In this document: piece after piece, positions 4,459-42,642 of the stretch
Layout: every line of letters begins with the position of its first letter
How positions within the stretch are numbered: position 1 is the stretch's first letter
Assembly: GCF_006874475.1 (NCBI RefSeq)
Contig: NZ_VIRM01000013.1
Location: 62,001 to 126,000 of the forward strand
Reading direction: 5' to 3'
From: Microbispora hainanensis
Lineage (GTDB): Bacteria; Actinomycetota; Actinomycetes; Streptosporangiales; Streptosporangiaceae
Length of the DNA stretch: 64,000 nt
Position numbers and translations under genes: made by a program
Notes under the pieces: model-generated
Database searches by the model: none
Seen by the model: only the letters and a program-made list of their open reading frames with translations
Told to the model about the DNA's origin: nothing

Positions 4459-5349
4459 GTGGAGCTGCGCGACATCGAGATCTTCCTCACGCTGGCGGAG
4501 GAGTTGCACTTCGGCCGCACGGCGGAACGGCTTCGCGTGTCCCAGGCCCGCGTCAGCCAGGCCATCAGCAAGCAGGAACGGCGCCTCGGCGTGGCCCTGT
4601 TCGATCGCACCAGCCGGCGGGTGGCCCTGACCCCTGTGGGCCGGCGCCTCCGGGAAGACCTCCAGCAGGCCCTCGACCTGATCAAGGCGGGACTCGCCCG
4701 CGCCGAGGCGGCCGGTCTGCGCGCGGGTCAGACCTTGCGGCTGGGCGTGTTCGGTCATGCCGCACACGAACTACGCCCCCTCGTCGACGCGTTCCGCGCC
4801 CGCCACCCGGGCGGCGACATCCAGTTCGGCGAGATCTACGGCAGCGACCCGTTCACCGCCCTGCGCAGCGGAGAGCACGACATGAACGTGCTGTGGTTGC
4901 CCATCGCCGAACCGGACCTCACGGTCGGCCCGACCGTGCTCACCGGGGGCCGCGTGCTGGCCGTGCCGGCGGATCATCCGCTCGCCGGGCGCGGCACCGC
5001 GTCCCTGGAGGACCTCGCCGACAACCATGTCGTCGACCTCGGCCCCGGCGCCCCCGAGTATTGGGTGGAGTCCATGGTCCCCACGCGTACACCGCTCGGC
5101 CGCCGTATCCCGCGCGGGCCCGCGGCGCGGACCTTTCACGAGATCCTTTCCCTGGTGGCCGCGGGACATTGCGTCCACCCGCTGGGCGAGATCGCCGCCC
5201 GCTACAACAGACCCCCCGGAGTCGTGTTCCTGCCTATCCATGACGCCCCCACCCTCCACTGGGCCCTGACGTGGCGCTCCACCGCCGACAACCCCGCGAT
5301 CCACGTGCTGGCGCAGATTGCCGCCGACCTCGGCCCCATCTCGCTGTGA
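4459..5349 (+). CDS. LysR-family transcriptional regulator
   Basis: A 296-residue regulator. The GTG at 4459 is chosen because the LysR fold begins directly with VELRDIEIFLTLAEELHFGRTAERL; the reading frame extends upstream but overlaps the yceI promoter side without family similarity. The winged helix-turn-helix covers residues 1-62 (RVSQARVSQAISKQERRLGVALFDRTSRRVALT), followed by a linker helix and a substrate-binding domain (LRLGVFGHA, LRSGEHDMNVLWLP, HPLAGRG). The effector is not predictable. It is divergent to yceI and stops about 80 bases before the promoter of the thrS paralogue leader, which has its own control. Confidence 0.92.
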   Translation: MELRDIEIFLTLAEELHFGRTAERLRVSQARVSQAISKQERRLGVALFDRTSRRVALTPVGRRLREDLQQALDLIKAGLARAEAAGLRAGQTLRLGVFGHAAHELRPLVDAFRARHPGGDIQFGEIYGSDPFTALRSGEHDMNVLWLPIAEPDLTVGPTVLTGGRVLAVPADHPLAGRGTASLEDLADNHVVDLGPGAPEYWVESMVPTRTPLGRRIPRGPAARTFHEILSLVAAGHCVHPLGEIAARYNRPPGVVFLPIHDAPTLHWALTWRSTADNPAIHVLAQIAADLGPISL

Positions 5350-5393
5350 GGGCGGTGGTGGGGAACGCGGTCCGCCGCGCGGTGAGAAACCTC

Positions 5394-5423
5394 TTCGGAG
5401 ACGATCAACGGCTGTGCTAGCGT
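5394..5423 (+). promoter_or_regulatory. Promoter of the thrS-paralogue leader (leaderless start)
   Basis: The -10 hexamer TAGCGT (5418-5423) lies exactly 7 bases before the ATG of the leader peptide, the spacing seen for leaderless actinobacterial mRNAs. A weak -35 element TTCGGA (5394-5399) lies 18 bases upstream. Transcription should start at or next to the A of the ATG. Confidence 0.55.
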
Positions 5424-5430
5424 TCGCGGC

Positions 5431-5481
5431 ATGAAGCGCGCCTGCCTGACGACGACGCCGGAGACCGTCCCGGCGCGCTGA
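5431..5481 (+). CDS. Threonine-rich leader peptide of the thrS-paralogue attenuator
   Basis: A 16-codon open frame reads MKRACLTTTPETVPAR. Codons 7-9 are three consecutive ACG threonine codons and a fourth threonine is codon 12, so a quarter of the peptide is threonine. It has a consensus-spaced -10 element directly upstream and no room for a Shine-Dalgarno sequence, so it should be leaderless. A 17-bp perfect hairpin starts 11 bases after its stop, then the gene for a threonyl-tRNA synthetase begins. Position, amino-acid content and RNA geometry all fit a ribosome-stalling sensor of charged tRNA-Thr. The peptide probably has no function beyond being translated. Confidence 0.8.
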   Translation: MKRACLTTTPETVPAR

Positions 5482-5530
5482 CACGTACTTCCGACGAAGC
5501 CCCGGGGCGAGCTGCCCCGGGGCTTCGTCG
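5457..5530 (+). promoter_or_regulatory. Transcription attenuator (segments 1-4) upstream of the thrS paralogue
   Basis: Hand folding gives four segments. Segment 1 (5457-5461) can pair with segment 2 (5470-5474). Segment 3 (5492-5508) and segment 4 (5514-5530) form a 17-bp perfect stem with a 5-base loop, a strong intrinsic-type terminator without a U run, as is common in high-GC genomes. The alternative antiterminator pairs 5466-5473 (CGTCCCGG) with 5502-5509 (CCGGGGCG), eight pairs including one wobble. A ribosome stalled at the first Thr codon leaves 5466-5473 free and allows the antiterminator; a ribosome at the stop codon covers it and the terminator forms. Confidence 0.75.
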
Positions 5531-5574
5531 TCCGGTCACTCGCCTCGCCGCACACAGAACGCGAGGAGACCGCG

Positions 5575-6837
5575 ATGCACGACCACCCCATCCACGACCA
5601 CCCGATGCACGACCACCGCAAGCTGGGCCGGGAGCTCGGCCTGTTCGACACCGACCCGCTGATCGGCTCGGGGCTGCCCTATTGGCTGCCCGACGGAGCC
5701 GTGATCAGGCACACCCTGGAGGAGTACATCCGCGACGCCGAACGACGCGCGGGCTACCGGCACGTGTACTCCCCTGTGCTGGGCAAACGGGAGCTGTACG
5801 AGATCTCCGGGCACTGGTCGCACTACAGCGACGACATGTTCCCGCCCATGGACCTCGGGGGAGAGCAGGTCGTGCTGCGGCCGAGCCTGTGCCCCCACCA
5901 CGCGCTGATCTACCGCTCGCGGTCGCACAGCTATCGCGAGCTGCCGCTGCGCGTCGCCGAGCTGGGCGGCATGTACCGCTCCGAGCTGTCGGGCGTGCTC
6001 GGCGGGCTCACCCGCGTGCGGGCGATCCAGCTCAACGACGCGCACATCTTCTGCACCCTCGACCAGGTCGCCGCCGAGGCGGCCGGGGCCCTGGAGATGA
6101 TCGGGCGCGCGTACGCCGCGCTCGGCATCCGCCCGGTCCGTCACCGGCTGTCCCTGCCCGGGGCCGGCGGCAAGTACGTCGCCGCCCCCGAGATGTGGCG
6201 GCGGGCGACCGCCATGCTGACCGACGTCCTCGACCGCTCCGGCCTGCCGTACGAGGCGGTCGAGGGCGAGGCGGCGTTCTACGGCCCGAAGATCGACGTG
6301 CAGATCGCCGACGGCGCGGGGCGGGAGGCCACCCTGTCCACCGTGCAGGTCGACTTCCACCAGCCCGAGCAGTTCGACCTGCACTACATCGGCCCGGACG
6401 GCGGCAGGCACCGGCCGGTCATGGTCCACCGCAGCATCATCGGCAGCGTCGAGCGGGCCGTGGCGCACCTCATCGAGGTGTACGGCGGTGCCTTCCCGGC
6501 CTGGCTCGCCCCCACCCAGCTGGTGGTCCTGCCGGTGACCGAGGCCGAGCTGCCGCGGGCCGAGGCGCTCGTACGGCGCTGCGCCGAGCTGGGCCTGCGG
6601 GCGGAGGTCTCCGGGCCCGAGCACGGCAGCCTGGGCGCCCGCGTCCGGGCCGCCCGGCTGGCGCCCTACCAGGCCGTCATCGGCGCGAAGGAGGCCGCGG
6701 GCGACGAGGTGGCGCTGCGCCTGCGCGACGGCCGCGCCCTGGACGCGATGCCCGCCGCCGAGGCGCTGGCCCGCATCGCCGACCTCGTCGCGGCCCGCAC
6801 CACCGCCCTGTGGGAGCCGGCCGTCCAGCGGGCCTGA
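5575..6837 (+). CDS. Threonyl-tRNA synthetase paralogue without TGS and editing domains
   Basis: A 420-residue class II synthetase against about 650-690 for full-length ThrRS. The TGS and second-site editing domains are absent; the protein begins directly with the catalytic core (GSGLPYWLPDGAVIRHTLEEYI). Motif 2 (RVAELGGMYRSELSG), NDAHIFCT and motif 3 (HRSIIGSVERAVAHLIEVYGG) are intact. The zinc ligands are Cys106, His157 and His285. An anticodon-binding domain covers about 315-410. The N terminus carries a three-fold repeat of His-Asp-His-Pro-type units (residues 2-14), a possible metal-binding tail. Expression is probably controlled by the Thr leader attenuator. It is likely an auxiliary, inducible or inhibitor-tolerant ThrRS; whether a full-length copy exists elsewhere is not visible here. 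Confidence 0.9.
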   Translation: MHDHPIHDHPMHDHRKLGRELGLFDTDPLIGSGLPYWLPDGAVIRHTLEEYIRDAERRAGYRHVYSPVLGKRELYEISGHWSHYSDDMFPPMDLGGEQVVLRPSLCPHHALIYRSRSHSYRELPLRVAELGGMYRSELSGVLGGLTRVRAIQLNDAHIFCTLDQVAAEAAGALEMIGRAYAALGIRPVRHRLSLPGAGGKYVAAPEMWRRATAMLTDVLDRSGLPYEAVEGEAAFYGPKIDVQIADGAGREATLSTVQVDFHQPEQFDLHYIGPDGGRHRPVMVHRSIIGSVERAVAHLIEVYGGAFPAWLAPTQLVVLPVTEAELPRAEALVRRCAELGLRAEVSGPEHGSLGARVRAARLAPYQAVIGAKEAAGDEVALRLRDGRALDAMPAAEALARIADLVAARTTALWEPAVQRA

Positions 6838-33687: not shown

Positions 33688-33770
33688 GGGCAAGTGGCGG
33701 AATGGCAGACGCGCACGGTTCAGGTCCGTGTGTCCGAGAGGACGTGGGGGTTCAACTCCCCCCTTGCCCA
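33688..33770 (+). tRNA. leuT: tRNA-Leu (anticodon CAG)
   Basis: An 83-base cloverleaf with a 7-bp acceptor (GGGCAAG with CTTGCCC), anticodon stem CACGG/CCGTG around loop TTCAGGT with anticodon CAG at 33721-33723, a long class II variable arm (TGTCCGAGAGGACG), and T arm GGGGG-TTCAACT-CCCCC. The discriminator is A and no CCA is encoded. A TAACCT hexamer at 33649-33654 may be its -10 element. It lies divergent to fhaA, as leuT does in mycobacteria. Confidence 0.96.
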
Positions 33771-33773
33771 CGA

Positions 33774-41095: not shown

Positions 41096-41200
41096 GGACG
41101 GCGGCGGTCGCCTACGGCAGGCGGCGGCGGTCGCGTACGGGCGGGGGCGGCGTAGGAAAACGGTCAAAGAAGTGTCATAATCCCCAAGACATCATCAATA

Positions 41201-41300
41201 ACTCGCGGGAGCTCGGGCGTGACCGGGCTGAGAGGGCGGATCGAACTCGTGCCGCCGACCGCATGAACCTGTCCGGATAATGCCGGCGTAGGGAGCGTGT
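41201..41300 (+). promoter_or_regulatory. TPP riboswitch (THI box)
   Basis: All conserved blocks are present: GCGGGAGCTCGG at the 5' side, CTGAGA (41228-41233), ACCTG (41267-41271), CCGGATAATGCCGG (41273-41286) and CGTAGGGA (41287-41294). ACTCGC (41201-41206) can pair with GCGTGT (41295-41300) as P1. The GGGAG ribosome-binding site of the next gene (41291-41295) is the 3' end of the element, and the ATG is at 41302. Binding of thiamine pyrophosphate should therefore hide the ribosome-binding site. Confidence 0.96.
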
Positions 41301-41301
41301 G

Positions 41302-42642
41302 ATGACTTCTGCCGTCGTCGACGACGCGCACGCGGAGGTTCCCCTCACTCTGGACGAGGAGGCTCCGAGGACCCTGGGGCTGCTCGACCAGGGCGCGTTC
41401 TGGGCGAATCTCGGGGTCAGCCTTCTGGGCTTCTCGGGGGCGCTGTTCCTGCTCGACCCGCTGGGCGGCAAGCCGCTGACGTTCACCGCGGCGGTGCTCG
41501 CCGCCGTCGTCGGCAGCCTGCTCGGGACGGCGATGGTCGGCCTGGCCGCGATTCCCGGCGTGCACACCGGGCGGCCCGCCATGGTGCTGCTGCGGGGCCT
41601 GTTCGGGGCCCGGCTGTCGTACATCCCGACCGTGCTGAACATCGTTCAGATGCTCGGCTGGGGCGCCTTCGAGCTGTGGGTCATCGCCAACGGCGCGCAG
41701 GCGCTGTTCGGCACGGCGGTGCCGTACGCGGTGTGGGCGGTGGCGGCGGGGGTGCTGACGATCGCGCTGACGATCCGGCCGCTCGGCGCGCTGCGGCTGC
41801 TGCGGCGCTACGTCACCGCCGGCGTGGTGATCGCGATGATCTGGCTGTCGATCGCCCTGTTCCGGCAGGGGCCGTCCGTGGGGGGCGGCTCCTGGGACGC
41901 CTTCGCCCCCGCCGTCGACTACGTCATCGCGCTGTCGGTGTCGTGGGTGCCGATGGCCGCCGACTACGCCAGGCACTCGCGGTCGAGCGGCGCGGCGTTC
42001 ACCGGCGTGGTCGCCGGATACACGATCGCCCAGGTGGCCTGCCTGGCCCTCGGCATCGCCGCGCTCGCCCTGGTCGGCAACGACGGCGACAAGGTGTGGG
42101 ACCCGTTCGTGGCCGCTCCTCTGGGGGTCGTGTTCTTCGGCATCCTGGTGCTGCGCGAGGCCGACCAGTCGTTCGCGAACGTCTACTCGACGACCGTGTC
42201 GATCCAGAACCTCGCGCCGCGCTGGGACCGCCGGGTGATCTCGGTCGTGATCGGCGTGCTCACCACGTTGATCGCGCTGTTCGCCGACGTGAACTCCTAC
42301 GGCGCGTTCCTGAGCGTGATCGGCGCGGTGTTCGTGCCGATGTTCTCCGTGCTCGTGGTGGACTACTTCCTGCTCGGCGGGAGGGCCCGGTGGAACACGG
42401 CCGAGGACGCCCCCTCGCGCTGGCTCATGGTCGTGCCGTGGATCCTCGGGTTCGCGGCGTACTGGATCGTGACCTCCACCCCTACGGTCGCCTGGTGGGA
42501 CGGGATCTGGAGCGGGGTCCGCGACACCCTCGGGTTCGTCCACCAGCCCTGGATGAACGCCGCGCTCGCCGCGTTCCTCGTCGCCGGGCTGGCGACCGTC
42601 GCGCTGTCTCTCCTGGGCCGCCGCCTGCCGTCGCGCGGTTAG
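41302..42642 (+). CDS. cytX: NCS1-family permease, probable hydroxymethylpyrimidine transporter CytX
   Basis: A 446-residue transporter with about 12 membrane segments in the NCS1 (nucleobase:cation symporter) family (LGLLDQGAFWANLGVSLLGFSGALFLL, LSVSWVPMAADYARHSRSSGAAFTG, NVYSTTVSIQNL). The direct TPP riboswitch makes it a thiamine-precursor importer; CytX is the NCS1 branch known for this. The ATG at 41302 is preferred over the adjacent GTG at 41299 because of spacing from GGGAG. Substrate is most likely hydroxymethylpyrimidine, by context. Confidence 0.92.
   Translation: MTSAVVDDAHAEVPLTLDEEAPRTLGLLDQGAFWANLGVSLLGFSGALFLLDPLGGKPLTFTAAVLAAVVGSLLGTAMVGLAAIPGVHTGRPAMVLLRGLFGARLSYIPTVLNIVQMLGWGAFELWVIANGAQALFGTAVPYAVWAVAAGVLTIALTIRPLGALRLLRRYVTAGVVIAMIWLSIALFRQGPSVGGGSWDAFAPAVDYVIALSVSWVPMAADYARHSRSSGAAFTGVVAGYTIAQVACLALGIAALALVGNDGDKVWDPFVAAPLGVVFFGILVLREADQSFANVYSTTVSIQNLAPRWDRRVISVVIGVLTTLIALFADVNSYGAFLSVIGAVFVPMFSVLVVDYFLLGGRARWNTAEDAPSRWLMVVPWILGFAAYWIVTSTPTVAWWDGIWSGVRDTLGFVHQPWMNAALAAFLVAGLATVALSLLGRRLPSRG

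Follow-up and report, generated by a model that had tools for sequence, protein, structure and literature searches.

The 64,000-nucleotide stretch of Microbispora hainanensis DNA analysed here (the window) carries, upstream of an auxiliary gene for a short threonyl-tRNA synthetase (thrS2), an element that reads as a ribosome-mediated attenuator of that gene, an assignment to which we give a probability of about 0.8. The attenuator probably acts on both transcription and translation. Judged by sequence comparison, the leader is a real and deeply conserved element in front of the auxiliary ThrRS. It is already known in one species; what is proposed here as new is a strand common to the loop of the terminator-like hairpin and the Shine-Dalgarno (SD) sequence, which would add a further switch where the ribosome binds. 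The features are as follows.

5386-5391, + strand: degenerate WblC/WhiB7-type box GAAACC, 26 nt before the -10 element, one mismatch to the consensus GAAAWY
5418-5423, + strand: -10 element TAGCGT, read in the sequence; the predicted transcript start is the leader ATG or a position adjoining it
5431-5481, + strand: leaderless-type leader ORF encoding MKRACLTTTPETVPAR (16 codons, 5431-5478; TGA, 5479-5481)
5449-5457, + strand: three consecutive ACG (Thr) codons, read in the sequence, the presumed sensor
5456-5461, + strand: segment 1, CGCCGG, predicted to pair with segment 2 in the untranslated leader (sequence, fold, alignment)
5467-5478, + strand: segment 2, GTCCCGGCGCGC, near-invariant in the alignment, with segment 1 or segment 3 as its candidate partner
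5492-5530, + strand: terminator-like hairpin of segments 3 and 4 (arms 5492-5509 and 5513-5530), followed by no U-run
5502-5508, + strand: part of segment 3 that would pair with 5467-5473 in the proposed antiterminator
5506-5514, + strand: element A, GGCGAGCTG, comprising the loop and the top of the hairpin, predicted to pair with B (alignment, swap test, tree)
5534-5544, + strand: element B, GGTCACTCGCC, the candidate switch strand, with A or the SD region as partner (alignment, swap test, tree)
5561-5571, + strand: SD region GCGAGGAGACC, predicted to pair with B (alignment, swap test, tree)
5575-6837, + strand: thrS2, auxiliary short threonyl-tRNA synthetase of 420 aa (Pfam, NCBIfam, structure match)

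Leader peptide and threonine codons

The leaderless-type -10 element, the 16-codon reading frame and the ACG triplet announced by the first-pass annotation can all be read directly at the positions given above. A leaderless start of the leader is likely because the ATG at 5431 lies only 7 nt past the -10 element TAGCGT. This gap is 6-7 nt in 131/142 leader loci and 10 nt in the other 11, and in those same 11 loci a second ATG directly precedes the leader ATG. A TANNNT at most 16 nt before the start codon was built into the leader search rule, together with the string ACGACGCCGG, which fixes Thr codons 2 and 3.

The DNA upstream of 147 thrS2 loci was inspected (80, 8, 26 and 32 from genome searches, and the window). 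The leader is present at 142 of the 147 loci of the short ThrRS paralogue, window included, a figure that counts loci rather than independent genomes as some loci are shared by the two genome sets; 102 k-mer representatives of the 142 remain. Occurrence at 142/147 loci places the leader beyond chance, and its conservation extends over several actinomycete families. Thr-Thr-Thr-Pro is encoded in all 142 leaders (codons 2 and 3 being fixed by the search string). Thr codon 1, which the search left free, shows synonymous changes only (ACG/ACC/ACT = 136/3/3), and the residue preceding the three Thr codons varies freely. Most leaders (136/142) end in PAR or PAPR. Since eight ORFs of the window use ACC about twice as often as ACG (105 versus 54 Thr codons), the ACG run departs from the common codon. 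Comparison of the loci thereby documents conservation of the leader, its Thr codons and its -10 spacing.

Homologous loci devoid of conserved Thr codons or hairpins had been named beforehand as evidence against attenuation; this test, run on the 147 loci, leaves attenuation unrefuted. Among the five loci of the 147 that lack the leader, three are contig edges (L064, L127, L137) and two are real exceptions. Of the latter, L030 keeps the hairpin, strand B and the SD, and L091 (genome G005) has a ThrRS match that is 95% identical from residue 38 on, preceded by unrelated sequence with no leader. At the level of genomes, 60 of the 62 with thrS2 in the class pass the leader search rule, the other two being the contig edges L127 and L137. 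The exact core pattern is found in 69/150 genomes of the Streptomyces-group genus to which genome G365 belongs, and the reversed control pattern in none. One genome of this Streptomyces-group genus (G423) has two leader-core copies, on contigs 149 and 158.

Segment 2 (GTCCCGGCGCGCTGA) is nearly invariant in the alignment. Four frameshifted leaders (L073, L124, L129, L202) have an indel after TTTP(D/E), by which the VPAR ending is lost and CCCGGCGCGCTGA retained. Because these leaders retain most of the segment 2 sequence but lose the VPAR end, segment 2 is conserved as RNA. A functional small peptide was also considered and is disfavoured, as the frameshifted leaders keep most of the RNA and lose the end of the peptide. 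The L073 and L202 peptides are alike and possibly derive from one event. The outer helix 1:2 is nearly invariant, and covariation neither supports nor refutes it.

The auxiliary synthetase

A domain-reduced ThrRS had been expected behind the leader, and this is borne out: at E <= 0.001, the only Pfam domains identified in the 420-aa protein are a class II catalytic core and an anticodon-binding domain (HGTP). The protein scores above the NCBIfam cut-off for thrS. Among solved structures, it is most similar to 1nyq, the Staphylococcus aureus ThrRS. As a longer ThrRS-like frame (44% identity) is also encoded in the same genome, the short gene is considered auxiliary. The short ThrRS occurs in 9/15 genomes of the genus, this one included (E <= 1e-120), and in 62/394 genomes of the class (E <= 1e-115). 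A resistant active site was considered and set aside, the CPHH motif being found also in 1nyq, the closest solved ThrRS.

The N-terminus of thrS2 (5575-5616 in the window) exhibits variable His/Asp-rich repeats, HDHPxHDH in the window, with long extensions in some relatives (L110, L115, L139, L142; by eye), and is reminiscent of metal-binding tails. A roughly 15-nt tandem repeat is visible by eye within the thrS2 gene of L146 (G100).

Hairpin, loop and Shine-Dalgarno pairings

The region 5432-5575 folds with z = -3.69 relative to 200 shuffles. The predicted hairpin 3:4 comprises 17 pairs and a 5-nt loop, and 11-18 perfect stem pairs are present in 128/142 loci, with a nearly invariant GC-rich core. 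The first-pass annotation had placed a terminator stem right after the leader. The stem is there and covaries; its role as an intrinsic terminator is uncertain because no U-run is found past it: in 142/142 loci, T runs within the 12 nt beyond the stem have a maximum length of 0-3. The element would work like a ribosome-mediated (leader peptide) attenuator whose hairpin, lacking a U-run, is no strict intrinsic terminator.

Covariation was assessed on an alignment of 94 of the 102 representatives (L034, L067, L080, L112, L130, L147, L148 and L149 were left out for large insertions or divergence). For hairpin 3:4, 93.9% of cells are paired and 23 are double-change cells, compared with 3.0 after shuffling. 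Sliding the hairpin by +1 as a control yields 26 double-change cells versus 23, yet only 62.8% of cells pair. The comparison of related genomes that had been suggested, for runs of Thr codons and compensatory stem changes, has thus given both, the former as the Thr-Thr-Thr-Pro of 142/142 leaders.

Two candidate pairings go beyond the first reading, one between an anti-Shine-Dalgarno strand (B) and the ribosome-binding site of thrS2, the other between the same strand and the hairpin loop (A). Comparison indicates that both covary, though not on every measure. Pairing the window sequence by hand gives 8 A:B pairs and leaves one C bulged. Over the 94 rows, 94.8% of A:B cells are paired, with 26 double-change cells versus 6.3 in the shuffled alignments, none of which reaches 26. 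Two A:B measures fail to exceed the shuffles: the number of pairs with two-sided change (4) is reached by 64/500 and the number of pair types (13) by 82/500. For B:SD, 87.7% of cells are paired, with 18 double-change cells versus 5.4 and two-sided change at 8 of the 9 pairs (94 rows). B columns 170-171, which lie inside A:B and outside the counted B:SD helix, are pyrimidine in 94/94 rows; the next column has 25 purines.

Compensatory events were also placed on the branches of a ThrRS tree made from the 70 of the 94 rows that have a full ThrRS. Five events were counted for A:B, four for B:SD and four for 3:4; slid columns gave 0-2 events, and mispaired columns a mean of 0.3-0.6 with a maximum of 2. 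In the swap test (139 loci, 130 distinct; L034, L067 and L080 left out), an element's own partner beats a foreign one in 75% (A:B) and 67% (B:SD) of comparisons. In L034 and L080, inserted sequence separates strand B, which is kept, from the terminator-like hairpin. The B:SD covariation indicates a downstream SD paired with an upstream strand, as in translational attenuators; in the predicted fold, closure of the SD is only partial (mean 0.34 open).

Antiterminator and equilibrium folding

The 8-bp antiterminator proposed by the first-pass annotation (5466-5473 with 5502-5509) fared less evenly. Its strands are complementary, with one G-U pair, and 98.2% of the 2:3 cells pair in the 94 rows; no covariation is seen, as the helix never varies on both sides, and it is disfavoured at equilibrium. 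Because 2:3 is invariant, covariation is unable to test it.

Equilibrium folding of 126 of 130 loci (L133, L143, L148 and L149 left out) gives hairpin 3:4 a mean probability of 0.95-0.96 whatever the ribosome position, and 2:3 a mean probability of 0.01 even when the ribosome is stalled. The mean energetic cost of forcing 2:3 is 11.8 kcal/mol. SD opening does not respond to ribosome position in these calculations (0.35 with 2:3 forced versus 0.34 in the stop state, higher in 72/126 loci). The expected A:B pairs number 1.15 in the forced 2:3 state versus 0.00. At L015, forcing 2:3 gives 2.75 expected A:B pairs, but SD opening, at 0.40 before, reaches only 0.45. The forced state of the window has no A:B pairing, B stays on the SD and SD opening remains 0.36. 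As proof of a switch, equilibrium folding failed, and it is counted against a simple switch. Since it disfavours 2:3 and leaves SD opening unchanged, the switch must be kinetic or the partners are mis-assigned. Other attenuators act kinetically.

WblC-type promoter box

Excerpts of a study of WblC place the box GAAAWY 3 nt before the -35 element and list thrS2 among the WblC-activated genes of S. coelicolor (PMC7157823), a thrS2 that is presumably the orthologue of the window gene. In 39/142 loci, an exact GAAAWY precedes the -10 element, to which the distance was taken, by 26-28 nt, where 0.14 would be expected after base shuffling; no promoter has one elsewhere in the 60 nt examined. The relaxed form GAAANY occurs at a fitting gap to the -10 element in 51/142 loci (0.54 expected after base shuffling). 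The usual spacer between -35 and -10 is about 17-19 nt, and the observed gap fits because a box 3 nt before the -35 hexamer, followed by such a spacer, gives the same distance. As read from their sequences, some thrS2 promoters carry a WblC/WhiB7-type box.

Specificity of the element

A covariance model gives one match in the M. hainanensis genome at E <= 0.01. In the class, 108/394 genomes have matches when weak ones are included, and 58 of the best 59 (>= 46 bits) lie on the contig of a thrS2 match and within about 320 nt of it. The remaining one of the best 59 (G244, L211) is at the end of contig 18, with leader and SD intact and about 80 nt of following sequence that is not ThrRS-like by eye; it may reflect a mobile-element insertion or an assembly break. 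As to weak matches, one in G219 is the known thrS2 locus, and one in G346 (43 bits) is a hairpin between two unrelated genes. A wider threonine regulon was rejected on account of the single match in the own genome and the proximity of 58 of the best 59 class matches to thrS2.

A T-box was likewise rejected, since Rfam models applied to the window with their gathering thresholds yield only a TPP riboswitch and a tRNA. The riboswitch (41195-41311, + strand) scores 66 bits, above the Rfam gathering score, and the tRNA, tRNA-Leu (CAG) at 33688-33771 on the + strand, is the only one found in the window.

Relation to described systems

The claim that such a leader had not been described is wrong. 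The leaderless peptide MKRVRPFLETTPGFVPAR, thrL, upstream of thrS in Streptomyces lividans TK24, has been in print since 2021 (PMC8079986), where, in the excerpted text, one hairpin is reported and termination is called not clear. The window leader and thrL are both leaderless-type peptides that contain Thr codons and Pro, end in PAR and precede a thrS gene; thrL has two Thr codons and the window leader three. The excerpted description of thrL (PMC8079986) comes without an antiterminator, an SD switch or a comparison among species. Genome G530 encodes the exact S. lividans peptide before a short ThrRS of the window's family. A search of one open-access literature library returned no description of the breadth, SD pairing or loop pairing of the thrS2 leader.

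The direct precedent for ribosome-mediated attenuation of an auxiliary synthetase is trpRS1 of S. coelicolor, which Vecchione and Sello reportedly found in 2010 to be under ribosome-mediated transcriptional attenuation. It too is an auxiliary actinomycete synthetase paralogue behind a leader with cognate codons, the synthetase and the peptide being different; we know of no SD switch in trpRS1. In ermC-type translational attenuation, a leader peptide precedes a sequestered downstream SD, and the drug is sensed via the nascent peptide. The thrS2 leader shares the leader peptide and the SD sequestration; it differs in that the conserved signal is codon identity and in the added terminator-like hairpin.

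Actinobacterial attenuators of trp, trpS, leuS and ilvB, as excerpted from a 2005 survey (PMC1262725), likewise combine a leader ORF with a terminator, and in several cases an antiterminator, before synthetase or amino-acid genes. By its own statement, the survey saw conserved structures nowhere else than at Trp, Cys and Leu genes and at ileS T-boxes, and the word 'thrS' is absent from the main text (PMC1262725). The uORF attenuation of wblC/whiB7 is similarly tied to translation stress, targets the regulator's own gene and, in the excerpted text, is presented with no discussion of the thrS2 leader (PMC7157823).

Proposed mechanism and alternatives

The transcript would be leaderless, starting at the leader ATG. 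With plentiful charged tRNA-Thr, the leader ribosome would reach the stop codon and cover segment 2, allowing hairpin 3:4 to form and RNA polymerase to be stopped or slowed; in transcripts that are read through, strand B would occupy the Shine-Dalgarno of thrS2. Once charging drops, the leader ribosome would stall on the ACG codons and cover segment 1, leaving segment 2 free for segment 3. Pairing of 2:3 would delay or abolish hairpin 3:4, so that A is free to capture B, and this capture would release the Shine-Dalgarno and allow ThrRS2 to be made. Ribosome geometry fits such an attenuator because, with the footprint that we assume, a ribosome stalled at Thr1 covers the RNA to about 5461 and frees 5467-5473, and one at the stop codon covers segment 2. 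Translation of the leader, threonine sensing, termination and the antiterminator are steps that we infer, as is the direction of the A/B/SD switch. By virtue of strand B, common to the terminator loop and the Shine-Dalgarno, one stalled leader ribosome may open both the transcription and the translation gate of the auxiliary synthetase; with a WblC-type promoter, thrS2 would then be a two-input stress gene that responds to antibiotic stress at the promoter and to tRNA-Thr charging at the leader. This fuller proposal is tentative, at slightly less than even odds.

Under the purely transcriptional attenuation of the first-pass annotation, only the choice between 2:3 and 3:4 would matter, with B:SD and A:B incidental. 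The classical parts for it are present and conserved, but the hairpin is followed by no U-run, and A:B and B:SD show as many compensatory events on the tree as the hairpin stem, which makes this restriction unlikely. Conversely, hairpin 3:4 might not terminate at all, the leader ribosome deciding SD opening alone. Such a mainly translational control would agree with the short T runs past the stem at all 142 loci and with the B:SD covariation, and in the excerpted account of S. lividans the authors too found termination unclear (PMC8079986). It is nevertheless doubtful as well: stems of 11-18 perfect pairs in 128/142 loci, with their nearly invariant GC-rich core, go far beyond the needs of a switch, and the predicted SD opening at equilibrium is independent of ribosome position.

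The leader could also sense general elongation stress caused by antibiotics, and not threonine, in the manner of the wblC uORFs. The WblC-type boxes of 39/142 promoters and the activation of thrS2 by WblC in S. coelicolor, as given in the excerpted report (PMC7157823), point in this direction. However, three Thr codons are maintained in 142/142 leaders next to a preceding residue that is free to vary, and WblC works at the promoter, where its input can coexist with one at the leader; we therefore regard a sensor of stress alone as rather improbable. Hardly credible at all is a hairpin that serves as the terminator of the upstream LysR gene next to a chance uORF. The LysR gene does end upstream of the hairpin, at 5349, but 142 loci have both the leader and the hairpin in front of thrS2, and the 102 representatives share no related DNA at 56-115 nt upstream of the leader (mean ungapped identity 0.30, versus 0.89 for the 30-nt core).

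Biological significance

The attenuator, conserved as it is, would be suited to use as a reporter of tRNA-Thr charging, and the triad of loop, anti-Shine-Dalgarno and Shine-Dalgarno offers precise compensatory mutations by which to ask whether a single ribosome is able to control termination as well as initiation. In many soil actinomycetes, the leader element most likely switches its gene on when charged tRNA-Thr is scarce, and it would explain why ThrRS2 stays silent until charging fails. ThrRS2 may be a back-up enzyme under translation stress; auxiliary synthetases are among the means by which soil bacteria may sustain translation when attacked.
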